Below are positions 5,309 to 28,819 of a stretch of DNA of 28,819 nt, in pieces (position 1 is the stretch's first letter; the number at the start of each line of letters is the position of its first letter). This stretch comes from a virus: positions 1 through 28,819 of the IMG/VR virus record IMGVR_UViG_3300009420_000061, one strand, 5' to 3'. Position numbers and translations under genes: made by a program. The notes under the pieces were generated by a model. The model had not been told where the DNA came from, did not search any database, and worked only from the letters and a program-made list of their open reading frames with translations.

Positions 5309-7045
5309 TTAAGCGAACTTTTTTCTCAATAAAGGTTTAACTGCTTCTAAGTTTTGTTTATCCTTAGGTTTAAGTAATTTACCAGCTCTGTTTATATAGA
5401 AATCTATTCTCGACATTGCTTGGTCTAAATCTTTACTTGCATCAGCTAAAACGGTTGCGATCTTAGTAGCTGGTTCTGTAAATAATCCTGCAGGTGGAGT
5501 CCATTTAGTTTTTACATCGTCGCTCCATTCATCAGATTCTTTAGTTAGTTTAGGTCCTTTTTTCATCTTCATCACCTCAACCTCATCACCGTTATCAGCA
5601 ACTTCCATATTTTCAGCATCTTCAACCTCTTCTCCGTCGTCATCCAATTCTATAGTATCTGCTTCAATAAGTTCGTTAGCCTCTCCTAAAAGTTTTTTAA
5701 TCTTCTCTAATTTTTTAGAATCTTTAGCTAATTCCTTAGCAGCATTTTGAAGTTTATCGCTTGGTGATGCATTATCATCTTCGTCACCTTCAACTGCATC
5801 AGCTGGAGATTCACCATCTTTAATTTTTTCTTCTGGAGAATCATCAGGTGCATCATCGTCAGGTCCTTGAGTTTCATCTTCATCGCCATCAACTAAATCG
5901 TCGATCATATCATCGATATCTTCTCCGTCAGCTTCAACTTGAAGAGTTTTTTTATTTAATTTCTCTTCAACCTTTTCATCATCATCTTCATTAAGAGTTT
6001 TTAAGAATTTATCAGCAACTTCTTCAAATGCAGCTTTTTTAGGCTCTTCTTCTTCGTTTATATCCTTTAGAAGTTTAGTAGCATTTTCTTCAAAAGTAGA
6101 TTTTACTTTTTTAGATTCTACAACTTCTAGTGCATTACCAGGATAAAAAGTTATATCGCCATTATCTATATTGCTTACAGCAAAAACTATGTCGTTTGAA
6201 CCAGCTTTATATTTATTAGCATTTGTAGGATCTAAATCCTTTTCTTTTTTATTCCATTCTTTATATTGGAATGCTTCTACAAAATCAACATCGTTTCCAT
6301 CAACATAAACATCGGCACCGCCTTTAGCCGCAGATTCTTTATCTTTGTCTTTTTTAACAATTCCTTCATTTACTTCTGATTCATTCATTACATGAACCAT
6401 ATTAGGAAAACCTTCCTTAGCAAGTTCTTTAGAAACCTTTGTAGCTTGTTTTATGTTCTTAAATTTCATAGCAAGTTTTAAGTCATGTGTAGTTTCAGTT
6501 CTACTCGTTCCACTTCCTCCATAGAAACCATTTCCGCTAGATACTAATGTCCAAACCTTACCTTCAGTAACTGGTTTGCTTTCCATTATACGTTTAGCAA
6601 AACCTTTAACATGAGCATTAGTTTTTATGCCATAGTCAGCTAATCTATCCTCATCTCCATATCCATTTATATACTCGATCATATCTTTAACGTTTCCGTT
6701 ATCTTCGATATCTTGAAACTTCTCAATAGATTCTTGATCATCTCCGAAGATTTTATCCATTTGATATTTTGCTTCATCATAATCAGGACCTTCATTAACT
6801 GATTTTTCATTTACTTTCTTTTCGCCGATAGCTAATTCCATTTCGAATTTTGCCATTGCTTTATTTATTCGCTGAGCATCAACACCTATTGATGTTAAAT
6901 ATGAACGTATAATTGATACATTTTTACCTTCACCTAGTAATTGTTGAATTATCGGGTCTAGTGAACCAGGTCCGAAATATCTATAATTACCTTGGAGTAC
7001 CAAGTTCTCGTTTACAAACTCATCAAAGCTTTTAATTTTAGCCAT
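5309..7045 (-). CDS. Acidic protein with internal-protein-like N-terminal targeting peptide (578 aa)
   Basis: This is a highly acidic, low-complexity protein of unknown family. Its N terminus, M-A-K-I-K-S-F-D-E-F-V-N-E, closely resembles the T4 internal protein capsid-targeting peptide (M-K-T-Y-Q-E-F-I-A-E), with a possible gp21 cut after Glu13. Residues about 90-155 form a compact domain (Y-Q-M-D-K-I-F-G-D-D-Q-E-S-I-E-K-F) nearly repeated in the 204-aa protein at 20837-21451. Further possible cut sites (V-N-E, I-N-E, L-N-E) and a short internal repeat (F-E-E-x-A-x-K-x-L-K) follow near residues 320-355. An Asp/Glu-rich run covers about 370-440. It lies downstream of gene 15 with a late-type element. 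A processed scaffold or packaged protein is the best guess. Confidence 0.8.
   Translation of the reverse strand: MAKIKSFDEFVNENLVLQGNYRYFGPGSLDPIIQQLLGEGKNVSIIRSYLTSIGVDAQRINKAMAKFEMELAIGEKKVNEKSVNEGPDYDEAKYQMDKIFGDDQESIEKFQDIEDNGNVKDMIEYINGYGDEDRLADYGIKTNAHVKGFAKRIMESKPVTEGKVWTLVSSGNGFYGGSGTSRTETTHDLKLAMKFKNIKQATKVSKELAKEGFPNMVHVMNESEVNEGIVKKDKDKESAAKGGADVYVDGNDVDFVEAFQYKEWNKKEKDLDPTNANKYKAGSNDIVFAVSNIDNGDITFYPGNALEVVESKKVKSTFEENATKLLKDINEEEEPKKAAFEEVADKFLKTLNEDDDEKVEEKLNKKTLQVEADGEDIDDMIDDLVDGDEDETQGPDDDAPDDSPEEKIKDGESPADAVEGDEDDNASPSDKLQNAAKELAKDSKKLEKIKKLLGEANELIEADTIELDDDGEEVEDAENMEVADNGDEVEVMKMKKGPKLTKESDEWSDDVKTKWTPPAGLFTEPATKIATVLADASKDLDQAMSRIDFYINRAGKLLKPKDKQNLEAVKPLLRKKFA
6584..6780 (-). 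repeat. Dispersed repeat copy 1 (duplicated 66-aa domain)
   Basis: This stretch matches 20849-21045 closely at both DNA and protein level. The shared core includes runs such as cttgaaacttctcaatagat in both copies. Each copy encodes a small acidic helical domain. The only other copy I found lies about 14.3 kb away. Confidence 0.8.
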
Positions 7046-7066
7046 TTTTCTGTAGTTTTATTTTGT

Positions 7067-7075
7067 TTATATATT
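7067..7075 (-). promoter_or_regulatory. Candidate late promoter of the 578-aa gene (AATATATAA)
   Basis: The minus strand reads GATAAATATATAAAC, 22 nt before the ATG. It differs from the recurring GATATATAA by one base. Confidence 0.4.
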
Positions 7076-7100
7076 TATCTATTGTTTGCATACTATTTTA

Positions 7101-7976
7101 TTAAGGGTTCTTAGAATGCGATCCACCAGTTGGATGAAGTGGATTAGATCCACCAGGTGGATTGATTGGCCAAGCATCTTCTCCAATATAAGGACTTGTT
7201 GCAAGAGTATTTTTTATGCCCTGTGTACTTCCTGTTACATTTGTACTCAAATTCCATGCTTGAACTATATTAGATGCATCCATTTCTGTATTAGCAGCAC
7301 CAGTAAATCCATTTTCTTCATTTTTGAATATAGGCATAAATGTGTTTACTTCTATAGCAAACGAAACTTTCCATGTTTTTTTATCGCTAAAAGTATATTC
7401 TAATGGTCTTTCCTTTTCGTAATCTTCTGGTAAGCTTGCCATTGCTGGTATTCTAGTTCCGTCTATATCTACTTGAAAAACCTGATGTTTATAGAAAATT
7501 TCAATAACTCTCTGAATAGCCTTAAATATATCTAAATTAGAATCCACATAAATTTCACACGAAAATGGAAGTTTTAATGGTATCATAAATACTTCAGAAT
7601 TTAATGTTTTTAATGTTCCATCTGCTTGAACTCTTTGATAAAAGGCTCTTACAAATTTATTAGTCATAGAACCTGCGTCTATATTGATTCCATCTAATTG
7701 TATAATTCCTCTAGGTATTTTATTATAAGGTCCTTCAGCTTTACCACTCGGTAATGTCGGATCTTCGTATGCAACATCGTTCATAAAAGAATCCATTAAG
7801 AATCGTTCATCACCGGTAGTGCTAAAATAAAAAGGTACGTTGATTTTCTTCTTTTCCGTTTGAGAAATTTGATTATACCAGTACATCCTGTTGTTTAATG
7901 TAGCTAATACACCAACTAAGATATTCCGTAAGACAACATCGTTTTTATTAAATTCTAAGTCATATAATTGAGCCAT
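7101..7976 (-). CDS. 15: Tail terminator / sheath stabiliser, T4 gp15-like
   Basis: This 291-aa protein resembles T4 gp15 (272 aa), the ring at the top of the contractile tail that docks the tail to the neck. The N-terminal half carries R-M-Y-W-Y-N-Q-I (about 30-37) and K-I-N-V-P-F-Y-F-S. The diagnostic core is P-L-K-L-P-F-S-C-E-I-Y-V followed by an amphipathic helix D-I-F-K-A-I-Q-R-V-I-E-I-F-Y-K. Next comes R-P-L-E-Y-T-F-S-D-K-K-T-W-K-V-S-F-A-I-E-V-N-T-F-M-P, aligning with the R-R-I-E-W-S-L-T-F-E-V-N-G-W-M-Y-P segment of gp15. The C-terminal tail is Pro/Gly/Asn-rich and probably flexible. Identification is by motif order only; the related gp3 is less likely. An exact GATATATAA precedes it by 19 nt. 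Confidence 0.8.
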   Translation of the reverse strand: MAQLYDLEFNKNDVVLRNILVGVLATLNNRMYWYNQISQTEKKKINVPFYFSTTGDERFLMDSFMNDVAYEDPTLPSGKAEGPYNKIPRGIIQLDGINIDAGSMTNKFVRAFYQRVQADGTLKTLNSEVFMIPLKLPFSCEIYVDSNLDIFKAIQRVIEIFYKHQVFQVDIDGTRIPAMASLPEDYEKERPLEYTFSDKKTWKVSFAIEVNTFMPIFKNEENGFTGAANTEMDASNIVQAWNLSTNVTGSTQGIKNTLATSPYIGEDAWPINPPGGSNPLHPTGGSHSKNP

Positions 7977-7994
7977 CTATAATTTGTAGTTTTT

Positions 7995-8003
7995 TTATAT
8001 ATC
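7995..8003 (-). promoter_or_regulatory. Candidate late promoter of gene 15 (GATATATAA)
   Basis: The minus strand reads ATGGATATATAAAAA, 19 nt before the ATG and just after the stop of gene 46. It marks the switch from the replication block to late genes. Confidence 0.5.
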
Positions 8004-8005
8004 CA

Positions 8006-9676: not shown

Positions 9677-9677
9677 A

Positions 9678-14197: not shown

Positions 14198-15331
14198 TTA
14201 GAATAGTGATAGTGTATATGCTAAGCTTCTATTTAATCTTGGCATTCCTGAAGGTATTATAATTCTGTTTAATGGTTCTAATATAAACATTTCAAATTGT
14301 CTCTCAACATCAATTTTAGGAGCGAGTTGATATGGATATGCTCCAGGTAAATAACCGAACACATCGCAAAATTGATCTTTAGCATAGTACCATCGAATCT
14401 TGTCGCTAGATTTTGTTAGATCATAATTATTTTTATGTTTAGAATTATTTACTAAGTAATTATGGTAACCACCAGCTCTAACATGAATAGGACATCCTTT
14501 AGCAATTTCAAATTCATTAGTATCATTAATCATAAATTTATTATAATCACCTATTCTACGATTAGAAGATATTTGTTCAATATCAGCTAGTTTGAATTGT
14601 GTTTTAATATCTTTAAGTACTTGAGTTAGTCCACTAATTGCATCGTTATCTAATTTATCTTTAGAAAATAAGAACTTAACTAGATCCGTAAGTTTATCTC
14701 TACAAAATGCTGGAGTAGATGATTGTATAATTTCTAAACCTTTTGTAGATATGTAAGAAAGTGGTTCATATTCTTTACCATCTTTCCAAACAATGTTTTG
14801 TACATATTTCTTTTTTGCAACCCAAATAGCGTTATTTGCAATTGTTTCTAATTCAAAATCTAAGAAGTTTTCGGAATTATAAGAATCTGCGTATTTTTGC
14901 AAGGTCATCTGAATGTACGATGATAACCTTAATTTATTCATTTTTAGAATAAAGTCTGTAACCGTACCTTCCCATTGACAAGATTCCATAACTTCTTCAA
15001 AGATAATATATCCTGAATCCGTATCTGTATATTTCCATACATGAGATGTTAACGGAGTAACTTCACATGTTACACCTAAAGCTTCGTGTAATTTTTTATC
15101 TTTATGCCAATGTTCTTTGAAATACTTTTCAACCGCCCTTTCTGTATATTTAATAGCATCTTGACCTTGTAACGTAACTGTTTCTGCTATATCAGTACTT
15201 CTAAAATGAAAATAATCGTTTGCAAACGCACCATAAATAGAGTTAATACAAAGCTTTATTGCTTGTTCTAAATTATAGTTTTGGAGACTTTCCTTTTCTA
15301 GTGCAATTATTTTAGTTTGTAATTCAGTCAT
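14198..15331 (-). CDS. 43: DNA polymerase gp43, C-terminal half (split subunit)
   Basis: This 377-aa protein is the C-terminal portion of a family B, T4-type DNA polymerase. It begins within the fingers and carries motif B K-L-C-I-N-S-I-Y-G at residues 26-34 and motif C Y-T-D-T-D-S at 101-106 with both catalytic aspartates (103, 105). The thumb region follows, with K-G-L-E-I-I-Q-S-S-T-P matching the G-M-E-T-Q-Q-S-S-T-P segment of T4 gp43. The C-terminal end S-L-A-Y-T-L-S-L-F resembles a clamp-binding tail (T4 ends S-L-D-F-L-F-G). It lacks exonuclease and motif A, which are encoded at 17992-19377. Its ATG overlaps the clamp stop by one base (TAATG), favouring coupled translation. The start and motifs are intact, so it is not a pseudogene. 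Confidence 0.93.
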   Translation of the reverse strand: MTELQTKIIALEKESLQNYNLEQAIKLCINSIYGAFANDYFHFRSTDIAETVTLQGQDAIKYTERAVEKYFKEHWHKDKKLHEALGVTCEVTPLTSHVWKYTDTDSGYIIFEEVMESCQWEGTVTDFILKMNKLRLSSYIQMTLQKYADSYNSENFLDFELETIANNAIWVAKKKYVQNIVWKDGKEYEPLSYISTKGLEIIQSSTPAFCRDKLTDLVKFLFSKDKLDNDAISGLTQVLKDIKTQFKLADIEQISSNRRIGDYNKFMINDTNEFEIAKGCPIHVRAGGYHNYLVNNSKHKNNYDLTKSSDKIRWYYAKDQFCDVFGYLPGAYPYQLAPKIDVERQFEMFILEPLNRIIIPSGMPRLNRSLAYTLSLF

Positions 15332-16077
15332 TAAGCTTTGATTGCTAAATTCAGTGCGATATTTGTGTTAGAATCTTCCGAATCTAAAACTAATTTATTT
15401 TGACATACTGAAACGTTATATGATTCCTTTGCAATTCTAGAAAAGAAGCTTTTGAATAAAGTAACTTCTTCGTGTTTTTCTGTGTGTGTATCATCGATTA
15501 CAATATCATATGTATCACCAGCAACATGGATTCCTCGATCATCTGAATAAATTCTGAATAATTCATTTTTATCAAGTGTGATAAGGTTATTTAATTTAAT
15601 TAAAGTTTCTTGTGAAAGACCGAAAGAATAAACTTCGTTATCTTTACCGAATGCTGCCGTTACTTGTGCATCGGACATTGTAGTAAATCCTAAAGAAACA
15701 TCCGCACAATGCAATGTTATTTCTAATGAATGGTCTCTAATAACTAATTTTTCTGCAAATTTTTCGTCGCCTTCTTCGTAACAATGTAATGTACCAGTAA
15801 GATTATGAATATCAAAATACTTAAGACAATCAATTAGTTTCTGTCCTGCGAAAAACGAAACTTTAATGTTTGTACCAATATCATCAGAATTTTCAAATTC
15901 CATAATATCTTTAGTATCGACAGTAACTATCTTAGCCACATCCTTTGTAGGTAAGTATGAGTTCGAAAAAATTCTATCTTCCGTTAAATTAAGATAAATT
16001 GCACTGTCCATTAACAATAGCTTTTTAACCATTGCTGTAAGTGGAGCTGGGTAAATTTTTGTGATTTCTAAATTCAT
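15331..16077 (-). CDS. 45: Probable sliding clamp, T4 gp45-like
   Basis: This 248-aa protein has the length of phage sliding clamps (T4 gp45 is 228 aa). It should encircle DNA to tether the polymerase and, in T4, also activate late transcription. The sequence alternates beta strands with helices in two similar halves (about 1-125 and 126-248), as expected for a two-domain clamp protomer. Sequence similarity by eye is weak, and the call rests largely on fold pattern and position. The gene lies directly before the polymerase C-half with stop and start overlapping (TAATG). It has its own middle-type promoter 22 nt upstream. Confidence 0.68.
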   Translation of the reverse strand: MNLEITKIYPAPLTAMVKKLLLMDSAIYLNLTEDRIFSNSYLPTKDVAKIVTVDTKDIMEFENSDDIGTNIKVSFFAGQKLIDCLKYFDIHNLTGTLHCYEEGDEKFAEKLVIRDHSLEITLHCADVSLGFTTMSDAQVTAAFGKDNEVYSFGLSQETLIKLNNLITLDKNELFRIYSDDRGIHVAGDTYDIVIDDTHTEKHEEVTLFKSFFSRIAKESYNVSVCQNKLVLDSEDSNTNIALNLAIKA

Positions 16078-16096
16078 TTAATAATATATTTGTTTT

Positions 16097-16130
16097 ATTA
16101 TTATATGAACTTATAGCTAATTGGTTTCAA
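16097..16130 (-). promoter_or_regulatory. Candidate middle/early promoter of the clamp gene
   Basis: The minus strand reads TTGAAACCAA (16121-16130), 13 nt, then CATATAATAAT (16097-16107). The dut promoter has the same TGAAACCAA box, the same 13-nt gap and the same 11-mer. It occupies the gap between nrdJ and the clamp gene. Confidence 0.65.
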
Positions 16131-17990
16131 TTATGTGATTTCACATGCACCACCTGCACAAGCTAATTCTTCACTTAATGCAGTGTTATCATCAACCTCT
16201 GTTATTTGATCTATATTAACTTCTGATAACGTTTTCATCATTTCGTTATATTTAGATTTTGTGATATCTTCAAAAGGTGCTTGTACATAGGTTCCGCCAT
16301 TGTATGGTAATACTGAAAGTCCATTATAATGGTTTCTATTCTCCCACATCCATTCTCCGGCTAAATCCCATTCATTATCTCTTAATGATATCGTTGCAGA
16401 AACATTATGTGTATTAGAACCTTTTCTATGTCCTGGTCTAACCCATTCTGTTGCAACTTGTTTAACTCTATCTAAAAGTTGAAATGGAGATTCTGTTCTC
16501 ATAATTGAACCTTCAGGAGCTTTTTGTGGTATACTAATTACTGCCGTATCATGTGGTCTAAAATAATCGTCTTCTATTAGTTCAGGATGATTTGTTAAAA
16601 GATGATGATACATAGATTCGTTTTTACCAACTCGTAATCTTCTAATATAATAATCATTATGCCATGCATGAATTCCAGATGATGTACCTAAAACTAATGA
16701 TGTAGTTCCTGCAGGTTTAACAGTAGTTGATCGTGCTGCTTTATTTACTCCAATTAGTTTCGCAACTCTAGAATTTTCTCTTTTAACTACGTCTGCAGCC
16801 TTTTTCATATCGTAACCTAAAACTTTACCACTACCAATTCCAGTCATTGATACACCAACTAAAGCATCTTTCTCGGTAGTTTCTCTCCATATTTCTCTTA
16901 GATAATGAAATTCAGTATAGCCTGCTTGAAGAGTTCCTATAAATGCAGCGCCTTTTACTCTTTCGTTTAGATCATCTTGATCTTCTATATTAGATACATT
17001 TACTTCACATAAATTACAGAATTGATATGGTCTTAACGCAATCTCACAACATGGATTTGTTCCCCAATCTTTATCATTATTTAGATAAATGCCAGGTTCA
17101 CCAGATCCTGATAATTCGACTCTCTTCCATAACTCCATAAAGAATTCTTTAGTGATTTTATGTCTCATTAAACAAGCAGAGTTATTAGATCTACCTCGTT
17201 GAGGGTTTAATTCCCACCAATTTCCAGATTTACAAGAAATCATTTCATTATCATCTGCGCTAAATAAACTAATAAGAGCAGCTCTTCTAATACCACCAGC
17301 AAGAACAGCATCAGCTATATGACATATAATATCATGTACTTCTAAGGTTGATAATGAATCTCCATTTTCCTTTTCTTCTAAAATACCAGTTACTTTTAAT
17401 ATACATTCCTTAAGTGGTTGAGGTCCTGGAGCTTTACCGCCAGATGTTACAAGTCTTTCACCTTTAGCACGAATATCTGAATAATCAAAAACAACTCGAC
17501 TACCACCACCATTCATATAAGACTTCATTAAAACTTTAACGGCATCCGCCCATCCTTCAATAGAATCTCCAATTAAGAATCTTCGTTTTCTTTTTGGATA
17601 TGGTTTTTGAATTGTAGGTAATTGATTAACATGGTGTTTCTGTACTGAATATCCAACCCCAGTACCTCCTAATAACAAAAACATTGTTTCACTAAAAGAA
17701 TCAATGTGATCTATAGGAAGATACGCACAGTTATAAATTCTATTTGGAGAAATCTCAATAGGCTTACCTCCAAATTGTAAGCTCCTCATTGATGGAAGTA
17801 TTTTTTTATCATATACTAGCTTATAAACATTTTCAATCTCATCCTTTAATTTAGGATAATGTTTTATATGCATAGCTTTGTTTCTGGTAACGATTTCTTC
17901 CCAGGTCTCTCTTCTATTTTTTTCTTCATTAAACTTTGCATATTTCATATACACCGTTATGTCGGATAAAATTCTGCTTGATATCTCCAT
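16131..17990 (-). CDS. nrdJ: Class II (B12-dependent) ribonucleotide reductase NrdJ
   Basis: This 619-aa monomeric-type reductase converts ribonucleotides to deoxyribonucleotides using adenosylcobalamin. Key residues are visible: N-C-A with Cys88 (active-site redox pair), N-P-C(314)-C-E(316)-I as the radical-site Cys and Glu, and F-C(325)-N-L-C, the second Cys of the redox pair. The spacing is that of Lactobacillus RTPR (408, 410, 419). The C-terminal A-C-A-G-G-A-C pair (Cys611, Cys616) is the shuttle that reduces the active site. L-G-G-T-G-V-G-Y-S near 107-115 is also family-typical. Its start lies 1 nt after the polymerase N-half stop, so it sits physically between the two polymerase genes. 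Cobalamin availability in the host is implied. Confidence 0.94.
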   Translation of the reverse strand: MEISSRILSDITVYMKYAKFNEEKNRRETWEEIVTRNKAMHIKHYPKLKDEIENVYKLVYDKKILPSMRSLQFGGKPIEISPNRIYNCAYLPIDHIDSFSETMFLLLGGTGVGYSVQKHHVNQLPTIQKPYPKRKRRFLIGDSIEGWADAVKVLMKSYMNGGGSRVVFDYSDIRAKGERLVTSGGKAPGPQPLKECILKVTGILEEKENGDSLSTLEVHDIICHIADAVLAGGIRRAALISLFSADDNEMISCKSGNWWELNPQRGRSNNSACLMRHKITKEFFMELWKRVELSGSGEPGIYLNNDKDWGTNPCCEIALRPYQFCNLCEVNVSNIEDQDDLNERVKGAAFIGTLQAGYTEFHYLREIWRETTEKDALVGVSMTGIGSGKVLGYDMKKAADVVKRENSRVAKLIGVNKAARSTTVKPAGTTSLVLGTSSGIHAWHNDYYIRRLRVGKNESMYHHLLTNHPELIEDDYFRPHDTAVISIPQKAPEGSIMRTESPFQLLDRVKQVATEWVRPGHRKGSNTHNVSATISLRDNEWDLAGEWMWENRNHYNGLSVLPYNGGTYVQAPFEDITKSKYNEMMKTLSEVNIDQITEVDDNTALSEELACAGGACEIT

Positions 17991-17991
17991 T

Positions 17992-19377
17992 TTATTCTTT
18001 GATTTTTTTTAATTTTTGTATTTCAATTTCTAATTCTAGGTGTCGTTTCTTGTGTGTTTTTCTTTTAGAGTACAATTCTGTTAAAATTGCTTTCATAGCA
18101 CTTGGTTTATTATCGTATACTGCACCTGTAACTGATACTATTTTTGTAGGATCTTTCCTATATTCTTCTAATTTTTCTGGATCAGATTCTTTCTTTACGA
18201 ACGATTCAGGAGATATATTTATTTGTCTCATTATCGATGGATATAGAGAAGCAAAATCAAAACATGCAGCACCCTTAAAGAATCCAGTTTGCGGTTCTTT
18301 TACATAAGCTCCTTCATAACCTCGTTTTTCACCAGGTCTAATAAATTCATCGGCTACTACCATATCTCGTTCATAATACTTTTTCCATAAAAATGCTTCA
18401 GTAATGTTTACTGCAGAAGTACATTTATACATAGATATATTGCATAAAACCGATACGGAAAGTACCGCATTTATAGTTGCAATTTTTTCATGGATTTCTG
18501 TAACCACAGCAGCATCAACCGCATTGTAGAATACATATTTATCGTAATCATTCTCGTAAAGTTCTTGTAATGAACCGTTATATTTAATCTTTCCTACACC
18601 TAATACTGCGTTTGCAACGAAATCTAATGTATTATTTTCTTTAACTGCGACGGTTCTATCAAATTGTCTATAAATTTGCAAGTAATCCATCATTCCGATA
18701 TGTAATGGTATATTATCTCGATTAACTTTTTTAGATGGGCTTGCTTGAGCACAATCAATTCCAAGTTTTTTGCAACGATTATAAATGTATTTCCAATCAA
18801 ATCCTATAAAATTCCAACCGGTTACGAATGCCATATTTGGTAAGAATCTATTAATGAATGTGTATAACATATTATATTCATCATCAAAACATTTATACTT
18901 AAATTCCCAATCACCAAATTTTTCTAAGTGTTTTTTAGTATTATCGTATATTTTCTTTTCTTGATCTTTTGTAATAGGCTTCCATCCTAAAACAAGTACC
19001 TTTTTATCTTGAGTAGCAATTGCAATAGTTGTTATTCTTTCTCTACAAATATCAGGGTTTGGGAATCCATCGATAACCTCAGTCTCAATATCAATTGAAT
19101 AAATTTTAGGAAAATTAAGTGCAGATAATTCTTCGATGTCTAGGCTGTTGTTTATAAACTCGTATATTGACCATTTATTTAGCCATTTAGCACGAACTTT
19201 TTTAACTGGTTTTCCATCCCAATTTCTATATCTAGCATCTTTTTGTGGATCTGTTTCTGAGCAGACTGCCCAATTTTGAAGTGTTCCTAATTTATAATCC
19301 TTTAATTTAACATCTCCGTTATGATCAAAGTAGGAGATTCGTAAATCATTAAAGCGTGTTTCTATATCTAATATCAT
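17992..19377 (-). CDS. 43: DNA polymerase gp43, N-terminal half (split subunit with 3'-5' exonuclease)
   Basis: This 461-aa protein holds the N-terminal and exonuclease domains, plus the palm up to motif A, of a T4-type family B polymerase. Exo I is S-I-D-I-E-T (Asp96, Glu98), Exo II is G-W-N-F-I-G-F-D (Asp194) and Exo III is Y-N-A-V-D (Asp288). Motif A is F-D-F-A-S-L-Y-P-S-I with catalytic Asp374. The protein stops in a Lys/Glu-rich helix that corresponds to the fingers (Y-S-K-R-K-T-H-K-K-R-H). The missing fingers half, motif B and motif C are on the separate 377-aa protein at 14198-15331. Together they total 838 aa against 898 in T4 gp43, so little is lost. The start overlaps the zinc-ribbon gene stop (ATGA). 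Confidence 0.95.
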   Translation of the reverse strand: MILDIETRFNDLRISYFDHNGDVKLKDYKLGTLQNWAVCSETDPQKDARYRNWDGKPVKKVRAKWLNKWSIYEFINNSLDIEELSALNFPKIYSIDIETEVIDGFPNPDICRERITTIAIATQDKKVLVLGWKPITKDQEKKIYDNTKKHLEKFGDWEFKYKCFDDEYNMLYTFINRFLPNMAFVTGWNFIGFDWKYIYNRCKKLGIDCAQASPSKKVNRDNIPLHIGMMDYLQIYRQFDRTVAVKENNTLDFVANAVLGVGKIKYNGSLQELYENDYDKYVFYNAVDAAVVTEIHEKIATINAVLSVSVLCNISMYKCTSAVNITEAFLWKKYYERDMVVADEFIRPGEKRGYEGAYVKEPQTGFFKGAACFDFASLYPSIMRQINISPESFVKKESDPEKLEEYRKDPTKIVSVTGAVYDNKPSAMKAILTELYSKRKTHKKRHLELEIEIQKLKKIKE

Positions 19378-20096: not shown

Positions 20097-20822
20097 TTAA
20101 GATATATCTGAATTTTTATTTTCAAATTCGTCAAATGATTTTATATTATATGAAGGATGAGATTCTTTAATTTTTTGCTCGGCCCATTTGTTAAGAGAAT
20201 TAACACTACCTCTCATCATTCTTGCATCTTCGAGTTCTTCACCTAAATTATGAACATTTTCATCAATAGTATCTACATATTCGGTTGCTGCTACCATTGC
20301 GTTATCTATGTTCGTAAATTCGCTTTCACCTGGTATAGGCATTCCGCTTTTAGAACTCTTAATTACAATCTTACCATCTCCATCTAAACGCAATCCATTG
20401 TCTATCATCGCACCATCTCCAAATCCACCTTTAGGTCTTACTACTGGTATCTTACCACCGGCACCATAACTAGAATCCATCATTATTTCATATTTTCTAG
20501 ATAATTTGAATTTCTTAAATGTATCAGTTAATTGCTTTATGTAAACAGAATCTCGTGCTTCATTTACCACTGATTCTTCTACAAAGGCATTATATTTTAG
20601 AAAGTCATATATCTTTTTTGCCTTTTTCTTTTTATCATCTTTATCTGTTAATGAGCTAGTTGCAGGTATATCACCGGAACCAGTTTCTTGAGTATCAAAA
20701 GAATCTTGAGAACCAGGATTTCCAGGAAAACTTATATCACCCATTCCATTAACGGATGCTGGTGTTGCAGCTGCATCCATTTCATCTAATTCATTCTTTT
20801 GTGATTTACCTAATGTTGACAT
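20097..20822 (-). CDS. Unrecognised protein with gp21-type cleavage-like motifs (241 aa)
   Basis: No named family is recognised. The first 65 residues are polar and Gly/Ser/Asp-rich, followed by a basic patch (D-D-K-K-K-K-A-K-K). Then comes F-L-K-Y-N-A-F-V-E-E-S-V-V-N-E-A, which contains F-V-E-E and V-N-E, two [ILV]-x-E cleavage-like sites near residues 78-90. A folded-looking middle follows (about 90-215). The last residues include I-K-S-F-D-E-F, the same words as the N-terminal peptide of the 578-aa protein. The stretch E-E-S-V-V-N-E is also present in the incomplete protein at the window end. It follows the 204-aa gene by 14 nt, probably on one transcript. Confidence 0.7.
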   Translation of the reverse strand: MSTLGKSQKNELDEMDAAATPASVNGMGDISFPGNPGSQDSFDTQETGSGDIPATSSLTDKDDKKKKAKKIYDFLKYNAFVEESVVNEARDSVYIKQLTDTFKKFKLSRKYEIMMDSSYGAGGKIPVVRPKGGFGDGAMIDNGLRLDGDGKIVIKSSKSGMPIPGESEFTNIDNAMVAATEYVDTIDENVHNLGEELEDARMMRGSVNSLNKWAEQKIKESHPSYNIKSFDEFENKNSDIS

Positions 20823-20836
20823 AATTGTTATTTTTT

Positions 20837-21451
20837 TTATCGCTTTCTCATTATATGTTTAGCAAATTTCTTAACATGTGCATCAGAGGTGATACCATAA
20901 TCAGATAATCTATCCTCATCTCCCCATTCCTCTATATAATTTACCATATCTTTCCAATCTCCATTATCTTCTATATCTTGAAACTTCTCAATAGATTCTT
21001 GATCGTCTCCAAAGATTTTATCCATATTAAAGGACGCTTCCTCTACATCAATAGCTTCGTTAACCGATACAAATTCAGATAACGATGGAATGTTTCTTAA
21101 TGTAGATTCATTTAATGCTGGTGGAGTTTTTTTATCTTGTTTTATAAGTTCTAAAACTCTTTGTCCATATTTAGAAAGACTAATATATTTCTCTCCATTT
21201 TTTTCGAAAGTACTAAAAAATTTTTGATTTCTCTTAAAAAATTTAACTTTGTTTATTTTAGAATGTCCATCTCTATCTTCCTCTAAACGAATTAAGTAAT
21301 TATTAAGATCTTGTTCTCTTACATAATTTTTACCTACATAGTTAATTATTGTATCTCTTACATTTGCACCCTTTTCATTGATTCTAATTCTAGGATGTTC
21401 GCCATATTTTCGCTTCACTTGATGTCTTCCTTCGTTTAATGATTCTAACAT
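20837..21451 (-). CDS. Protein carrying the duplicated 66-aa domain (204 aa)
   Basis: Function is unknown. Residues 1-110 are basic and could be a winged-helix nucleic-acid-binding region (R-K-Y-G-E-H-P-R-I-R-I-N-E-K-G-A-N-V-R-D and, later, I-S-L-S-K-Y-G-Q-R-V-L-E-L-I). A linker with S-L-S-E-F-V-S-V-N-E-A follows, again a cleavage-like F-V-x-V-N-E. Residues about 137-202 are nearly the same as residues 90-155 of the 578-aa protein. The architecture suggests a DNA-binding head joined to a shared virion or scaffold interaction domain. A late-type GATATATAG lies 26 nt upstream. Confidence 0.72.
   Translation of the reverse strand: MLESLNEGRHQVKRKYGEHPRIRINEKGANVRDTIINYVGKNYVREQDLNNYLIRLEEDRDGHSKINKVKFFKRNQKFFSTFEKNGEKYISLSKYGQRVLELIKQDKKTPPALNESTLRNIPSLSEFVSVNEAIDVEEASFNMDKIFGDDQESIEKFQDIEDNGDWKDMVNYIEEWGDEDRLSDYGITSDAHVKKFAKHIMRKR
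20849..21045 (-). repeat. Dispersed repeat copy 2 (duplicated 66-aa domain)
   Basis: This is the counterpart of 6584-6780. It encodes the C-terminal domain of the 204-aa protein, with nearly identical residues M-D-K-I-F-G-D-D-Q-E-S-I-E-K-F-Q-D-I-E-D. Conservation at DNA level points to a recent duplication or gene conversion. Confidence 0.8.
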
Positions 21452-21486: not shown

Positions 21487-23226
21487 TTAAGATTGTAACA
21501 ATTCTGTTCTTAATTGTTTGTAATATCTATGCTCAGCCTTTGGCGTTAATTTCTTAAATAATTTTTCATCATCAGCCTCAATTGCATCTCTAACTTGAGT
21601 AGCACTTATATTTTTACTATCTCGTTTAACTTCGAACGGTCTAAAATCATCTAAAACATTGCATTCAGGTCCATAGTTTTTTATCATTCTTACATAATCT
21701 TTATAACGATCTGTTCCTGTACCCCATAAAACTGGTTCATATTTAGAACGCAACGCATCGAGAACTGGTACTAAAAAACCAGTTTGAGCTTCTTCAACTG
21801 ATACTATAAATGAATACTGTTTAATGATATCCATCCAAATTTTTGTAATTAAGCTTTCGTCAAATTTAAGATTACCCTTAGATTTAGATCTAACTTGTAC
21901 TATTACACAAGGTAGGCTGTTTTCTGCATTTAATTTTCTAAGTAATTTAATGTGTCCTAATGTCGGTGGTTGAAATCTACCAACGATGATATTAACCGGT
22001 GTTTTCCCTGGTTCTTTATGTACTAAATCTTTAGAAACATTTTCTAATAATATAGCTTCTTTCAAAAAGTAATCTGATTCTAATAAAGCACGTTTTTGAT
22101 ATTTATTGTAAAAATAATCTTCAAATGTAGGAACTGTTTCTTTATTTTCTGGTGTTTCTATTGCTCTATCACTTATCATATCTACTAATTTATTTATTTC
22201 AAATCGCATATTGTCATCTATTAAAACCGATGTATTCTTTTTCTTTTTAGTAAATGTGCCTAAAAACAATTTGAATAATTCTTGATTGATTTGAGATTTT
22301 TCTAAATACTTTATTGTATTTTTATTTACAACAAATTTAAGATTAACATCGAATTCCGGTATATTTTTTGCGAAATCAGGACCATCTAAATCTGTCATAT
22401 CTTGATATTTGCTACCGTTCTTTTGTATATACTTAGAATATATGTCAGATAATAAATTTAAGACTCTTTGTACCTTAGTTTCTCCTTTTATAGCAAAGTT
22501 ATCTAAATTAATAGTTTGTACAAATTCTAATATATCTTGTAATGCTAATGCATACGTATCAGATGGAGTTCTAGATTTCCTTTTAATTTTTATATCACTT
22601 TTTGGATTCAACACCTTTAATGATATATCTTCATTTAGTTTATCTAAAAACTTAATTGTATATCCATCGGACATATCTTTGAAATAACCAAACAATGTTT
22701 TCATATTTTCATATAATTTTTCTGGTTTATCTATCCCTTCAACAATGATATTTTTTTGCTTCTTATTTAATCTACCGTGATAACATACCGGAGATCGTTC
22801 AATTTCTAATAAATGAGCTAAATAATCTAATACTTTTGGATCGTCAACAAACTTTAATATCTTTCCATTTTTATCTAAAGTTCTAACATCCTCTAATATC
22901 AATCCGTTCTTAGGTCTATTCTCGTAGTTAGAAGGAAAATATCTTAAATTAAATCTATAATTATCTAAAGATTTTTTAATATCTTCAGGTAATGATTGTA
23001 TATGATGTATTGTGTTTTCGTAAATAGAATGAATTGTTCTATCTAATTCGGTAAGATTTTTACCTGAAGCGGTTTTGAAAAACTTAAATTTACCTGATTC
23101 TCTAATGAAAGATATACCAGTACCATTAAGTTTTTCTTTAATTACTACAAATTTATCAAAAAGACCGAGAGTTTGATCTCGGCCTTCCTGTATAAATAAA
23201 TCTTTTAATTCTAATAATTTAGACAT
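21487..23226 (-). CDS. Two-domain nucleotidyltransferase: ligase-like N-terminal part plus NMN-adenylyltransferase-like C-terminal domain
   Basis: This 579-aa protein is an apparent fusion. The C-terminal domain (about 410-579) has G-R-F-Q-P-P-T-L-G-H at 416-425 and N-I-S-A-T-Q-V-R at 539-546. These are the H-x-G-H-type and I-S-x-T-x-x-R signatures of NMN/FMN adenylyltransferases and cytidylyltransferases. The N-terminal region has K-E-K-L-N-G-T-G (Lys32), like ligase motif I (K-x-D/N-G), and later D-G-Y-T-I-K-F (187-193), like motif IV. This ligase-like reading is moderate. Residues 380-395 contain A-L-L-E, F-L-K-E and L-L-E, possible gp21 sites between the domains. The N terminus L-K-D-L-F-I-Q-E loosely fits the targeting peptide. 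NAD synthesis or RNA-end repair are possible roles. A terminator-like hairpin overlaps codons 15-22. Confidence 0.75.
   Translation of the reverse strand: MSKLLELKDLFIQEGRDQTLGLFDKFVVIKEKLNGTGISFIRESGKFKFFKTASGKNLTELDRTIHSIYENTIHHIQSLPEDIKKSLDNYRFNLRYFPSNYENRPKNGLILEDVRTLDKNGKILKFVDDPKVLDYLAHLLEIERSPVCYHGRLNKKQKNIIVEGIDKPEKLYENMKTLFGYFKDMSDGYTIKFLDKLNEDISLKVLNPKSDIKIKRKSRTPSDTYALALQDILEFVQTINLDNFAIKGETKVQRVLNLLSDIYSKYIQKNGSKYQDMTDLDGPDFAKNIPEFDVNLKFVVNKNTIKYLEKSQINQELFKLFLGTFTKKKKNTSVLIDDNMRFEINKLVDMISDRAIETPENKETVPTFEDYFYNKYQKRALLESDYFLKEAILLENVSKDLVHKEPGKTPVNIIVGRFQPPTLGHIKLLRKLNAENSLPCVIVQVRSKSKGNLKFDESLITKIWMDIIKQYSFIVSVEEAQTGFLVPVLDALRSKYEPVLWGTGTDRYKDYVRMIKNYGPECNVLDDFRPFEVKRDSKNISATQVRDAIEADDEKLFKKLTPKAEHRYYKQLRTELLQS
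23163..23184 (-). terminator. Terminator-like hairpin inside the 5' end of the 579-aa gene
   Basis: The minus strand reads GGCCGAGA, a 6-nt loop, then TCTCGGTC and TTTTTG. The 8-bp stem has one G-T wobble. It resembles an intrinsic terminator but lies at codons 15-22 of the gene. It could end transcripts from the upstream 209-aa gene or attenuate this one. Chance is not excluded. Confidence 0.35.
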
Positions 23227-23234: not shown

Positions 23235-23864
23235 TTAAGAAGTCATTCCGGTAAAGAAATTATCTTCATCCGTAGTAGTCATATCCTTAAAATTTGTCTC
23301 TAGATATTTTTCCATATCTTTATATGCAGCTGGATCTTTTTGCTTTAAGAAATCTAGAACTTTTCCGAGTGTCATAGAGGTTAATCTAGAATCATATTTA
23401 TCATGTTTCTCTTGCATTTCATCGATTGATTCTTCATTAGATTCGTTTGCTTTGTCGATATGTTGACCATCTCTATCTTCACTATCTCTTTTACCAAACT
23501 TACCGTAAGAATCATCTCTTCTATCTTTATCAGATTGTTTCTTATCTTTTTCAGCACCATCTCTAGCTCCAATAGACTCATCTTCTCTATCATCGTAACC
23601 TTGTCTTGCAGGTTCTGTTGGTTTATCTGAAGATAATTCCTTTTTAATAGAATCCATTTCTTTAGATTTGTCATCATGACCACCATCAGTAGTTGTTGCA
23701 GATTTTATTTCAGCTTTACTCAGATCTCCAGTTTTATCATCTAGATCCTTTTGAATATCGCCAGCTTTATCTTGTACTTCACCGATTTTATTAACTCTAT
23801 CTTCGATAGCTTTAGCTGAATCAGATTCTAAAAGGTATTCATCGTAACTTTTAATATGTTTCAT
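23235..23864 (-). CDS. Hydrophilic internal-protein-like protein (209 aa)
   Basis: This small, extremely charged, low-complexity protein is rich in Asp, Lys, Glu, Ser and Arg, with runs such as D-R-R-D-D-S-Y-G-K-F-G-K-R-D-S-E-D-R-D. Its N terminus, M-K-H-I-K-S-Y-D-E-Y-L-L-E-S, is a close match in pattern to the T4 internal protein targeting peptide (M-K-T-Y-Q-E-F-I-A-E), with a probable gp21 cut after Glu13. The middle (about 40-140) is probably disordered. The C-terminal third looks helical (T-L-G-K-V-L-D-F-L-K-Q-K-D). It is preceded by an exact GATATATAA. I infer a packaged and processed head protein. No enzymatic motif is seen. Confidence 0.78.
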   Translation of the reverse strand: MKHIKSYDEYLLESDSAKAIEDRVNKIGEVQDKAGDIQKDLDDKTGDLSKAEIKSATTTDGGHDDKSKEMDSIKKELSSDKPTEPARQGYDDREDESIGARDGAEKDKKQSDKDRRDDSYGKFGKRDSEDRDGQHIDKANESNEESIDEMQEKHDKYDSRLTSMTLGKVLDFLKQKDPAAYKDMEKYLETNFKDMTTTDEDNFFTGMTS

Positions 23865-23890
23865 TCTAGTTTTGTTTTTTTAATTATACT

Positions 23891-24289: not shown

Positions 24290-24311
24290 ATATAATTATA
24301 TGACACATATA

Positions 24312-24686: not shown

Positions 24687-24696
24687 GTTTTATATA

Positions 24697-25713: not shown

Positions 25714-25724
25714 ATAATTATATA

Positions 25725-27014
25725 TTAGCCGTATCTAAGAATTCCAAGAATCTGATTAACCGGGGCGAATGCTCCAGTAAGTTTATAAGTCTTTCCTTTA
25801 TGTTGAAATACTATTCCTTCTGAAGGTAATACTGCATCAAATCCTCCAATAGCTTGTAATTTTTTTAATTGAGCCTCTAATTTAGCTTTTGCAGCTTCAC
25901 TTCCGGAAGATCTAAGATTTTTAATTCCAGATTCTAATTCAGTTTTAATATCTTTAACTACTTTATCAGGATTCAATGCTAAGAATCCAGTAGCTAATTG
26001 TATAACTCTCACACCTAATCTCAAGAAAAGATTTTCAAATGGTGAAATAATTTGTTTGTAATAATTTGCTACGTTTTTTTCTTTAGCAAAATCTAATGTC
26101 CATTTCAAAAAATCTTTATTAGTTATTGCCTTTTTAATATCAGGAATTCTAAAACTTTTATCTTGAAATGCGAATCTATTTATTAAACCTTCTAATATAT
26201 TAGGTGCTAAATCATAACCATACTTAGAAGCCATACCTTCGATTGTTTCGGCGTATTGTTTTCTAATATAATCTTTTATCGATTGATTATCTTTAAGACC
26301 TGTAGATTTTTGAATTTTTGATAATTCTGTATAAAAACTAGCTCGATCCGATTCATAATTTATATTCTTAGAAAATTCAACAGCCTTTGGAGGATCTATT
26401 TGAAAATTCTTTTGAACGTCTGCATTAACATCCTTAATAAGTTTTGTTAACGTAGATGCATTTGACTTATCTTCACCTACTGCGTTACCAGCTTCATCAT
26501 ATTCTGTTGTATTATGGAATATCAATTTAGGTGTATCATAATTTATTACATTCGATGTTTTTGGATAAATCAATTCTAAATGCATAAAACGCTTTCCCTC
26601 TCCGAAAATTTTCTCTCGTTCCTTTGGGTTAATCTTAGATATTGCAGATTCTAGATCTTGCATTGCAAAAGTAAAGGCATCTGCTAGATCTCCACGACCT
26701 TCAAATTTAGTTATTACATCTTGTATAGTTAAACCTGCAGCACCAAAGTTCTTTCGATCGCCTTTGTTTCTAGATGCAATCAATCTACCATCTTTCCATG
26801 ATACTGCGATTGCTTGGCCATCTAATTTTTCAGTTGTAACAACCTCTTTATTTAAGCCTCCTTGAAGTGCATCTGAAATTAAATCTTTGATTTCGCTGAA
26901 TGTTAAATTAACATCATCGTATGGATGAGCCATATGTCCAAAAGAACCACCCTCAAATAAAAATTGATTGATAGCACTTTCTGAAACAAATTGCGAGTAG
27001 TTATAAAAACCCAT
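25725..27014 (-). CDS. Ligase-like nucleotidyltransferase with targeting-like N terminus (429 aa)
   Basis: The core has the ordered motifs of covalent nucleotidyltransferases (DNA/RNA ligases): motif I T-E-K-L-D-G-Q-A (about 61-68, adenylylated Lys), motif Ia A-S-R-N-K-G-D-R, motif III-like F-M-H-L-E-L-I-Y-P, motif IV P-S-E-G-I-V-F and motif V Y-K-L-T-G-A-F near the C terminus. A helical insertion separates motifs III and IV. The N terminus has Y-S-Q-F-V-S-E and N-Q-F-L-F-E, two F-[LV]-x-E segments like internal-protein cut sites, then [13 protein letters not shown]. No OB-fold domain is evident after motif V. RNA or DNA end sealing is inferred, and the true substrate is unknown. It lies before the collagen-like gene. 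Confidence 0.75.
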
Positions 27015-27028
27015 TATATTGTATTATT

Positions 27029-28225
27029 TTATCCTTTTACGATTGCATCAACATCAGCAACATATTGAGTAATTTCTTTTCTATAACCCATTGCCTTTGT
27101 GTTATATCGATCCATTGATTTTGAATAATAACTTACTTCTGCTTCGTATTGAAGTTTTTTCTGATCATCATCAGAATCCTTAATCTTTTCAGCGTATTTT
27201 TCTGCAGCTTCCATATCTCTCATTGCATAGTCATATTCTCTAGACATATCTTCAATAGTTCTAAGCATTTGATTGATTGGTCTAATTAAACTCTCTTGTC
27301 CCCAACCTCCAAATTTTACTTTTGTATTAAGATCTTTAGCATTTTTTGGAGTAATATCGGTAAGCTTAGTTTGAAACCAATTCATATACTTAGTTAATGC
27401 ACCACTGATATCTTTCCATAATTGATCTGGTGTTGTTTTATCTTGTAGTGCTTGTTCGTATCTTCTTTGATTATCCTTTTTAACTTGTTCTGGTGTAGTA
27501 AATGCTGCAGCTCCTGATTTAGCTTCGGCTCTTGCAGTTTGTAGTTCTGAATTACTATATTTAGATTCTAATGCACTCATATCAAGAACATATACTTTAG
27601 TTGCAACTAATTCAAGATTCTTTCTAGTTATTTTTGCATCTGGTGAAGGAACACCTTCATAACGATATGAAGAATCAGTTCTCCATTGATCGGCAAGAAC
27701 ACCATATCGTTGATCTGGTGATTTTTTATATCTACGATAACCACTAGTTCCAGCATCTTGTTCGAATCCGTACCACATACCAACCTTACCTCTCATGATT
27801 GTTAATACAAGTCCAACACCTTGTGCATTCTTAAGAATTTTATTTAATTTTAATTTCTTACCTTCATTATCCATTCTTTGCTGTAATCTTGTATCCCAAG
27901 ATTTGAATAATTCAGGATTATCATCTACAAAGAATCCAATAGCTTGATTGTTCTTTGAATATCCTTGAGACCACCATTCAGCTGGGCTAATCTGAATAAA
28001 ATCTTCGTTAGTAATTTTATCTAGTTTAATGTTAGAAAATTTGAAGAAGTCTTTAGCAAATTTGTTTGTCCATCTACTACCACTTTCTTGACTAGATAGT
28101 TGTCTAAGTATAGAAGAATCAAAAGCTTCGTTAATTGGCTCGTAAGAATCAAATTCGTTTTTTCGTTTTTCTATAATTGATTGGTATTCATTGAATACTT
28201 CAAAATTCATGTAATTGTTTTTCAT
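27029..28225 (-). CDS. Unrecognised protein (398 aa)
   Basis: I recognise no family. The N terminus contains F-E-V-F-N-E and S-Y-E-P-I-N-E-A-F, where I-N-E-A fits an [ILV]-x-E cleavage site near residue 33. Residues about 35-215 look like a folded domain (W-W-S-Q-G-Y, V-G-L-V-L-T-I-M-R-G-K-V-G-M-W-Y-G-F-E, and Y-R-R-Y-K-K-S near 165). From about residue 225 it is charged and strongly helical, with probable coiled coil up to the C terminus. The start could also be the Met6 codon at 28210. It lies 14 nt before the ligase-like gene, probably in one operon. A packaged protein is possible. Confidence 0.75.
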   Translation of the reverse strand: MKNNYMNFEVFNEYQSIIEKRKNEFDSYEPINEAFDSSILRQLSSQESGSRWTNKFAKDFFKFSNIKLDKITNEDFIQISPAEWWSQGYSKNNQAIGFFVDDNPELFKSWDTRLQQRMDNEGKKLKLNKILKNAQGVGLVLTIMRGKVGMWYGFEQDAGTSGYRRYKKSPDQRYGVLADQWRTDSSYRYEGVPSPDAKITRKNLELVATKVYVLDMSALESKYSNSELQTARAEAKSGAAAFTTPEQVKKDNQRRYEQALQDKTTPDQLWKDISGALTKYMNWFQTKLTDITPKNAKDLNTKVKFGGWGQESLIRPINQMLRTIEDMSREYDYAMRDMEAAEKYAEKIKDSDDDQKKLQYEAEVSYYSKSMDRYNTKAMGYRKEITQYVADVDAIVKG

Positions 28226-28264
28226 ATCTACGCGTGATTATATTTATTATCTGTTTAGTTTAGT

Positions 28265-28819
28265 TTATCCTCCGAACCCTGAAGATAAAGCTCCAACTGC
28301 AGCTCCATAATCATCTCCGTATTTCTTTTTAAGACCATCCTTAACTTTCTTTGCGATCTTTTCGTCAAAATCGTCTGGATGCGCTTTTTTTAACATCTCA
28401 TCTGCATATTTATCAAATTCAGCATCAGATTTAATTTCCTTTGCTTCTAAGATAGAAGATTCAGTAACTGATTCAAAAGCTGAACCAACTTTTTTTCCAG
28501 CAAGAACATCCTTGCAAGCTTTATTGAATTGCTTTAATTTTTTAGTAGCATCTCCAGGATAACCATCTTGCATTAATTCAATAGCCATATTTAAGTGGCT
28601 TCCTATATTATCAGCATCTTCATCGCCTAAAGCGTCAAAGTCATCAGAAAGTTTTAATAATGCTTCCTCACCAGTCTTCTTAGTAATAGTTAAACCTATA
28701 GTTAATAGAGGCTTTAATCCTTTTGCTAATTTTTCGTTAACTACTGATTCTTCTAATTCCTCTTCTTCCTCTTCTTCCTTTTTGTCAAAATCAGCATCTT
28801 TTTTAAGAGCTTTGATTTC
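28265..28819 (-). CDS. Charged protein with VNE-type motifs, N terminus beyond window
   Basis: The frame is open from the stop at 28265 to the window edge without a required start, so the ATG at 28588 is probably internal; 184 codons are visible. The visible part begins with an acidic run (K-K-E-E-E-E-E-E-E-L) followed by E-E-S-V-V-N-E-K. Its E-E-S-V-V-N-E is identical to a stretch of the 241-aa protein at 20097. A hydrophobic helix (L-L-T-I-G-L-T-I) and charged helices follow, including E-S-S-I-L-E-A-K. The tail ends A-L-S-S-G-F-G-G. No family is recognised. The composition resembles the other presumed scaffold or packaged proteins. Confidence 0.7.
   Translation of the reverse strand, partial: EIKALKKDADFDKKEEEEEEELEESVVNEKLAKGLKPLLTIGLTITKKTGEEALLKLSDDFDALGDEDADNIGSHLNMAIELMQDGYPGDATKKLKQFNKACKDVLAGKKVGSAFESVTESSILEAKEIKSDAEFDKYADEMLKKAHPDDFDEKIAKKVKDGLKKKYGDDYGAAVGALSSGFGG

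Follow-up and report, generated by a model that had tools for sequence, protein, structure and literature searches.

A short N-terminal tag, very probably a T4-type capsid-targeting sequence expanded into a general protein address, in a clade of giant T4-like phages

In phage T4, the internal proteins IPI-III carry an N-terminal capsid-targeting sequence (CTS) (Mullaney and Black, via PMC9026906); by mutagenesis, residues 4 and 7 of the peptide serve mainly targeting and residues 8 and 10 processing (PMC9026906). IPI and IPIII are reported to have roles of the host take-over or anti-defence kind (PMC9391042). The packaged T4 ADP-ribosyltransferase Alt has a 7-residue N-terminal propeptide that is removed by gp21, and is ejected into the host (PMC9026906). 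The giant phages phiKZ and SPN3US have many head proteins, some of which are processed by the prohead protease and ejected (PMC5694885, PMC10052503); SPN3US propeptides are mostly 111-254 aa long (two have 20 and 24) and carry the motif A-X-E. In MuF-toxin fusions, a module is hypothesised to direct the effector to the capsid (PMC11699363). Here we analyze a stretch of 28,819 nucleotides from a T4-like phage (IMG/VR virus record IMGVR_UViG_3300009420_000061, positions 1 to 28,819; hereafter the window) and describe a short N-terminal tag that is present on proteins of the window and on up to dozens of proteins in each of its relatives. Judged by sequence, it is highly probable that this tag is a T4-internal-protein-like CTS that has been expanded into a general address.

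The tag resembles that of IPI-III in being an N-terminal peptide of 10-13 aa on otherwise different proteins, in genomes with an S77 protease, and it resembles the CTS itself in its aromatics at positions -6 and -3 and [ILV] at -2, counted from the Glu at the predicted cut. It differs from the CTS in an extra hydrophobic residue at -9, Asn at -1 and sometimes a second site, and from the T4 situation in its abundance (up to 44 of 431 genes, commonly in a fixed 13-aa form, compared with 3 strict matches in 254 T4 genes). In contrast to the single enzyme Alt, which a matrix built from these tags does not recover, the clade carries its tag on several enzyme families. Unlike those of SPN3US, the clade propeptides are mostly 9-17 aa long, end in [ILV]xE and form a single shared address, and the MuF module is a whole protein domain whereas the tag is a short, predicted-cleavable peptide. 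The CTS is a known kind of signal; its probable clade form is new and greatly expanded, and there is likely to be a molecular reason why it has this shape.

One fixed motif, [FY]xx[FY][ILV]xE starting at residue 2-13 (the strict motif), was used throughout, on genes called by our own open reading frame (ORF) rule from the first ATG, which sets some starts wrongly (e.g., G006 136570 and G002 20179). Of the 28 proteins called in the window, 3 match (those of 578, 209 and 429 aa), compared with 0.082 expected from matches deeper in the same proteins (P = 7.7e-5); when the N termini were shuffled 2000 times, 0.115 matches arose on average and never more than 2. The preliminary description had recognized the T4 type of targeting peptide in the first two proteins and a looser version in the third, an RNA-ligase-like protein; all three are matched, and the gp21 on which it had built is present as an S77 protease, though cut by the window edge. 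The comparison was extended to nine clade records (G001, G002, G003, G004, G005, G006, G008, G009 and the 462-kb metagenomic phage record LR756500). G001 (132,786 bases) holds a near-identical copy of the window in reversed orientation at 52490-81309; 160,000 of the 160,448 bases of G002 were used. The clade contigs are probably fragments, and the counts of G003 and G006 are not independent because these two are near-duplicates over their shared parts.

Strict matches were found in 44 of 431 genes in G004, 27/316 in G005, 28/286 in G006, 15/144 in G003, 17/228 in G002, 11/129 in G001 (0.52 expected), 6/153 in G008, 4/71 in G009 and 21/660 in LR756500. With expectations of 0.3-1.9 per record, these counts represent an approximately 11- to 57-fold excess, with P values down to 4.5e-55. 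The proposal of a large set of proteins with CTS-like N termini and a gp21-type ending is therefore strongly supported by sequence, and the genome-wide search made the set larger than had been noted. Among comparison phages, T4 has 3/254 (0.76 expected), PAU 0/287, Mel-JY01 1/228, P-SSM2 3/289 (0.42 expected), S-PM2 1/202, PTm1 2/301 and HTVC008M 0/188; the Staphylococcus phage K, which is not T4-like, has 1/137. Four of these records were used in part (240 of 252 kb for P-SSM2, 160 of 196 kb for S-PM2, 180 of 190 kb for Mel-JY01 and 100 of 148 kb for phage K). Therefore, of the phages compared, the clade alone shows the great expansion of the strict-motif form. Short degenerate motifs may turn up by chance at the N termini of AT-rich phage genes, as the few matches in phage K, S-PM2, PTm1 and P-SSM2 illustrate, but for the clade this explanation is refuted by the size of the excess and by the lack of any such excess in shuffled N termini or C termini (G001, G008, G009 and the window), and we give it practically no weight.

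A scan for [ILV]xE that did not require the aromatics showed a peak at residue 13 in G004 (43 genes, compared with a mean of 7.9), and the same peak was found in six of the nine records (G004, G005, G003, G006, G002 and LR756500). In LR756500 there is a second [ILV]xE peak, ending at residue 6 (33 genes, compared with an average of 12.9 per position). The tag core also stands at the C terminus of 32 proteins, compared with 18.8 +/- 3.7 internally (maximum 28 in 200 draws), but such a C-terminal version was rejected as unproven because the rows look mixed.

The consensus was derived from 159 distinct tagged proteins, of which 112 have a tag of exactly 13 residues. The commonest residues are M-K-[NHY]-[IL]-[KPQ]-[TKS]-[FY]-[ED]-E-[FY]-[LVI]-N-E, followed by [SANG], or in short MKxI(P/K)xFxEFxNE↓S (arrows mark cuts, predicted in the clade), and the consensus dies away past the Glu. 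Positions left free by the motif are also kept, with a hydrophobic residue (I, L, F, V or M) at -9 in 157 and Asn at -1 in 115 of the 159. A second [ILV]NE within 20 residues past the tag occurs at 25 of 2862 positions, compared with 59 of 23,941 in the rest of the tagged proteins, a 3.5-fold enrichment. An aromatic core followed by a displaced site was found at the N terminus of 47 of the 2245 proteins that lack the strict motif, and a control taken at one random internal place per protein gave 11; the targeting core and the cleavage site therefore look separable, as in T4.

The tag is conserved as a peptide while its codons are scrambled in the largest records. Agreement of synonymous codons among tags is at the expectation from codon usage in G004 (0.615 observed, 0.593 expected) and G005 (0.665 and 0.669) and below it in LR756500 (0.717 and 0.778). 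When homologues were matched without their first 25 residues, leaving aside pairs more than 95% identical, all pairs between G003 and G006 and alignments that spanned less than 40% of the query, the partners of tagged proteins were tagged in 162 of 245 cases and those of untagged proteins in 74 of 4728. These results bear on the possibility that the tag reflects common descent, as a recently duplicated paralogous family or as tag DNA copied by recombination, with no present function. Tandem arrays of tagged genes (e.g., G004 167613-180218) would fit such a history, as would the codons of G006 (0.670 compared with 0.552 expected, 11 tags), the sole excess in this test of tag copying. However, when 150 tagged proteins are aligned, column identity averages 4% and a consensus appears in the tag only, and this, together with the codons of G004, G005 and LR756500, makes common descent a very improbable explanation.

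The protease of the clade provides a candidate origin for the tag. Its His (GELDHP) and Ser (ISSRAAG), which we take to be the catalytic residues, align with T4 gp21, but the clade gp21 is 564-663 aa long (46 homologues with a repeat region) compared with 212 aa in T4. The G001 genes for gp21 and the major capsid protein (MCP) have no separate gene between them. Behind the protease part, the strict 7-mer motif occurs 176 times in 46 distinct full-length gp21 sequences, with no copy starting within the first 180 residues and 85 of 89 neighboring spacings (up to 60 residues) being multiples of 14; shuffled sequences held a mean of 3.2 copies and a maximum of 8. A weak structural model (mean pLDDT 58) drew the repeat region as long helices. 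The extension looks like a gp22-like scaffold of 14-residue repeats, one core unit of which would serve as the cargo tag, and the tag looks like a borrowed scaffold unit because its 7-mer recurs every 14 residues there. T4 gp21 is short and separate from the scaffold gp22, whereas the clade protease is fused to repeats of the tag unit. Maturation protease and scaffold also share one polypeptide in herpesvirus-type systems; unlike these, the clade is T4-like and appears to reuse the repeat unit as a cargo address.

A score matrix was built from clade tags only, without T4 sequences. Scores above 9 were obtained by 183 of 2418 clade genes (1.6 expected). Applied to T4 with its last seven positions, the matrix gave 13.0 each to ORFs 65416 and 65834, which we take to be IPII and IPIII, and 13.7 to a 54-aa ORF; the next best gene scored 1.2. 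The small ORF, at 18966-19130 of NC_000866, begins with MKTFKEFIKE and equals the internal proteins in score; it possibly encodes a small packaged protein. Two P-SSM2 genes (14.0 and 12.6) and one S-PM2 gene (15.6) also scored high. The maturation site of gp23, FGSFLTE↓A, in what is presumably T4 ORF 104945, fits the strict motif, and the T4 positions that matter for targeting and processing are those conserved in the clade tags.

The isolate PAU has a pattern of its own, M..[LIMV]xxL[YFLHI]E, nine residues long, which heads 21 of 287 called genes where 0.7 would be expected; 18 of these tags read MK[STG][LI]xxL[YF]E, the next residue being mostly A or S, and the bare [ILV]xE scan peaks at residue 9 (24 compared with 6.3). 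The pattern was fixed from the sequence before the annotation labels were seen. Of five genes labeled 'internal capsid protein' in the PAU record, four (gp142, gp154, gp199 and gp270) carry it, compared with 21 of 291 overall (P = 1e-4), and gp152, labeled 'scaffolding', is tagged too. Because PAU, whose record names a reference-collection host strain and whose host is strain HER1398, carries a version of the tag, the idea is testable on a cultured phage. The host strain has been reassigned to Sphingobacterium (PMC3738902).

Several observations weigh against a CTS-like address of such breadth. Although the gp21 repeats contain the 7-mer, the full tag matrix gives them low scores. The strict motif is absent from T4 gp22, and internal matches such as that of gp23 occur in 11 T4 ORFs, gp23 included. 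In the Tenacibaculum phage PTm1, the gp21 frame is long (597 aa), yet there is no clear tag excess. The residue-13 peak was not found in G001, G008 and G009, where tag length varies; only [ILV]NE, and not [ILV]xE in general, is enriched behind the tag; and of the 245 partners of tagged proteins, 83 score below the threshold for a tag, some of them with a displaced site. With 1.2 as the next-best T4 score, IPI and Alt are not recovered, and one gene of phage K scores 11.4. PAU is devoid of the strict motif; its pattern was derived from PAU itself, gp70 is labeled an internal capsid protein and lacks the tag, and the record states no basis for its labels.

In the course of events that we favor, proteins are made with the leading sequence M-K-x-[IL]-x-x-[FY]-x-[ED]-[FY]-[ILV]-N-E, which is read directly from their genes. 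The hydrophobic side of the short tag helix would then dock into the prohead core, where the likeliest partner is the fused protease-scaffold, with the same Y-x-E-Y-[ILV]-x-E unit in its 14-residue repeats. Next, gp21 would cut after [ILV]-x-E, in some proteins also at a second [ILV]NE site, and would thereby dice the scaffold and release the cargo; the L/I-X-E specificity is known for T4 and would extend to the clade. The cargo would remain in the head with the DNA and, by analogy with T4, be delivered at infection, so that a tag shared by dozens of proteins probably serves to load them into the head for host entry alongside the DNA. An amphipathic N-terminal helix could have other uses, and the tag might instead direct proteins to the membrane, to a replication compartment or to degradation, its likeness to the T4 CTS being coincidental. 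The gp21-type ending, the sharp boundary, the tag unit in the gp21-fused repeats, the recovery of T4 internal proteins by the matrix and the PAU internal-capsid labels all argue against this, and we consider it quite improbable.

Family scans covered 150 of the 159 distinct tagged proteins (5 crossing piece borders and 4 others were left out) and yield tallies without naming member proteins. Among the matches listed, which cover 25 of 36 and 25 of 86 matching families, are at least five leucine-rich-repeat proteins, at least three KTSC, at least three ATP-grasp, at least two HAD-IIIA phosphatases (a family that also covers polynucleotide 3'-phosphatases), at least two cytidylyltransferase/NMNAT proteins, a putative metallopeptidase/VWA pair and a glycosyltransferase. 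A motif search located five leucine-rich-repeat tagged proteins, all in LR756500. The RimK-like ATP-grasp gene lies a few kb from the major capsid gene, and its product has the tag or a shifted-site tag in all seven contigs with a full-length homologue (two being near-duplicates). A tagged G004 protein matches an ADP-ribosyltransferase family (ART-PolyVal) weakly and below the family cut-off (E 0.0011), and one of the 150 matches phrog_2667, 'internal head protein' (E 6.1e-4). By sequence likeness, then, the tagged set includes enzyme-like proteins, namely RimK-like, RNA-ligase-like, NMNAT-like, HAD-IIIA and a weak ADP-ribosyltransferase candidate.

The RNA-ligase-like protein of the window, of 429 aa, has EKLDG, EGIVF and YKLTG, taken here as motifs I (KxDG) and IV/V of the nucleotidyltransferase/ligase superfamily. 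In 33 sequences, K63, D65, G66, E399, G400 and K411 are invariant, as are E21, G22 and G23 at the second predicted site. In 54 of 56 distinct segments, [ILVM]xE-G directly precedes the ligase-like domain, while residues further upstream vary widely. In loci of other virus contigs, an NMNAT-like FPGGFKP region stands at the chain start instead in 31 of 48 (the table of chain starts covers 48 of 70 loci). The model of the 429-aa protein (pLDDT 84) is under 50 at residues 1-26 and ordered from about residue 27. Among the 25 best Foldseek rows, 23 are named RNA ligases and 2 putative DNA ligase (best E 5.1e-3, so none under 1e-3, with TM-scores about 0.2), and comparison with VIA gave a Z of 7.8, in the range where chance is possible; the structural matches to RNA ligases are suggestive only. 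A profile search of the PDB gave only matches at E 0.25 or above.

The tagged proteins might nevertheless be building blocks of the prohead core only, most of which would exit the head after cleavage by gp21; no set of enzymes would then be injected. The 578-aa protein fits this description: its gene is near the portal gene, it is rich in xNE sites, and its N-terminal region is common to and tagged in G001 and six other records (G009, G004, G005, G006, G003 and G002). It is presumed to be a prohead core protein, and a part of the tagged set, of which it is an example, is more likely core or structural than delivered. The enrichment of second [ILV]NE sites points the same way. Tagged proteins are, moreover, not clearly more variable than others, with a homologue in another record for 88 of 177 compared with 1144 of 1965 untagged ones; because they hardly lack homologues more often than untagged proteins, we give this alternative slightly more weight. 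Against it stand the matches to folded domains and enzymes (RimK-like ATP-grasp, ligase-like, NMNAT, KTSC, leucine-rich repeats and HAD-IIIA) and the ligase-like model, ordered from just past its second site. Overall, a core-only role for the tags appears unlikely, though far from negligible.

If the tag acts as an address for packaging, the clade may possess a programmable cargo-loading code, in which the scaffold unit YxEY[ILV]xE serves in single copy as a protease-removed address on up to 10% of genes, the virion injects dozens of proteins (RNA-ligase-like, NMNAT-like, RimK-like, ADP-ribosyltransferase-like and leucine-rich-repeat ones along with many of no assigned kind) before phage gene expression, and new cargo is added by placing the address before any gene; we are evenly divided on whether this is so. 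The sequence rule would predict from the genome alone which giant-phage proteins are packaged and probably injected. Most tagged proteins have no family match, and they are candidates for host take-over or anti-defence. The proposal also offers a testable account of how a capsid-targeting peptide may recognize the prohead core, as a copy of the scaffold's own repeat. An open-access literature search (subscription journals and preprints were outside its scope) found neither the expansion nor the likeness between tag and scaffold repeat described.

Table 1. Positions of the tags, predicted cut sites and proteins discussed (window coordinates, except for the example tag; arrows mark predicted cuts)
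Feature	Position	Strand	Remarks
gp21-like prohead protease, N-terminal 144 aa	3..434	-	Edge-cut (585 aa in G001); S77, phrog_207
Portal protein (gp20-like)	496..2079	-	phrog_213
578-aa tagged protein	5309..7045	-	Begins with tag; also a short conserved domain, an acidic stretch in which xNE sites recur, and C-terminal DUF3175
Tag of 578-aa protein	7007..7045	-	MAKIKSFDEFVNE, then N; predicted cut after residue 13
241-aa protein (ORF 20097-20822), internal tag-like stretch	20553..20594	-	YNAFVEE↓SVVNE↓A, residues 77-90; within FLKYNAFVEE
241-aa protein, copy of MCP N-terminal arm	20658..20804	-	Residues 7-55
204-aa protein (ORF 20837-21451), start	21431..21451	-	MLESLNE↓G; possible 7-aa propeptide, weak
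579-aa ligase-like/NMNAT fusion	21487..23226	-	CTP_transf_like match; judged not tagged
209-aa tagged charged protein	23235..23864	-	No assigned function
Tag of 209-aa protein	23826..23864	-	MKHIKSYDEYLLE, then S; predicted cut after residue 13
429-aa tagged RNA-ligase-like protein	25725..27014	-	EKLDG, EGIVF, YKLTG motifs
Second predicted site of 429-aa protein	26952..26978	-	NQFLFE↓GG, after residue 21; directly ahead of ligase-like domain
Tag of 429-aa protein	26979..27014	-	Predicted cut after residue 12
Presumed propeptide of 398-aa protein (ORF 27029-28225)	28127..28225	-	Core NFEVF; predicted cut INE↓AFDSS after residue 33
Window-end protein, C-terminal part	28265..28819	-	Complete in G001: 376 aa, start MALSKFSSFKKERSTIKE
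Example clade tag	G005 92872		MKNIPSFEEFVNE

The remaining window proteins that had been proposed as tagged fared differently (Table 1). The 398-aa protein is upheld, since its homologues in G009, G006, G003, G002 and LR756500 keep the FxxF/Y core and the xE↓AFxS boundary, with propeptides of 22-37 aa. The incomplete protein at the window end has a clear tag in its relatives in G004, G005 and G008 and a degenerate form in the present phage, as read from the complete protein in G001. For the 204-aa protein, LNE↓G is kept in four relatives (G009, G006, G003 and G002), but the FxxF core is missing and G004 and G005 lack the site, which leaves a weak case. The 241-aa protein has no N-terminal tag, its tag-like stretch being internal, and the ligase/NMNAT fusion was rejected: eight homologues begin with a conserved domain and nothing that resembles the tag, and the residues at the site vary (IQE in the window; NQE, AEK, KEQ, QRE and RKE in homologues). 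In G004 and G005, however, an NMNAT-like part belongs to a protein of its own, which is tagged. Searching the PDB by sequence with the 579-aa fusion found nothing. The homologue of the 209-aa protein in G009 is tagged too (MNNLKSYDEFLFE).

Further observations concern these proteins and their relatives. The DUF3175 match of the 578-aa protein (E 3.4e-7) lies at 5315-5425, residues 541-577, and a 76-aa domain (MDKIFGDDQESIEKFQDIEDNG...) is common, at 70% identity, to the 204-aa (20837-21451) and 578-aa (5309-7045) proteins. The arm copy in the 241-aa protein is 53% identical over 49 aa to residues 36-84 of the G001 MCP; such copies also occur in small proteins at L168 541-777 (G002 20541-20777) and G009 30095-30679, and perhaps represent a second route into the head or a capsid-binding mimic. 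A 1122-aa protein on the minus strand of G008 (71312-74680; L107 11312-14680) has ligase-like and NMNAT-like regions and then an internal copy of the tag, VKSFNDFINE↓S, at residues 609-618, as if two genes had fused and the tag of the second had been retained. Directly after the major capsid gene of G001, a 794-aa protein (84523-86907; L097 4523-6907) starts MKIISRNSFNHINE↓A; it had no match in a Pfam scan and is likely a further processed head protein.

All identified genes of the window are on the minus strand. They comprise the edge-cut gp21 protease, portal, a gp2-like end protector, head closure, a late sigma factor, SbcC/SbcD, a helicase, UvsX, a split DNA polymerase, ribonucleotide reductase, dUTPase, a collagen-like fibre and several proteins of no assigned family. 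The two DNA polymerase genes, at 14198-19377, encode 461 and 377 aa and are separated by those for ribonucleotide reductase and a 248-aa protein.

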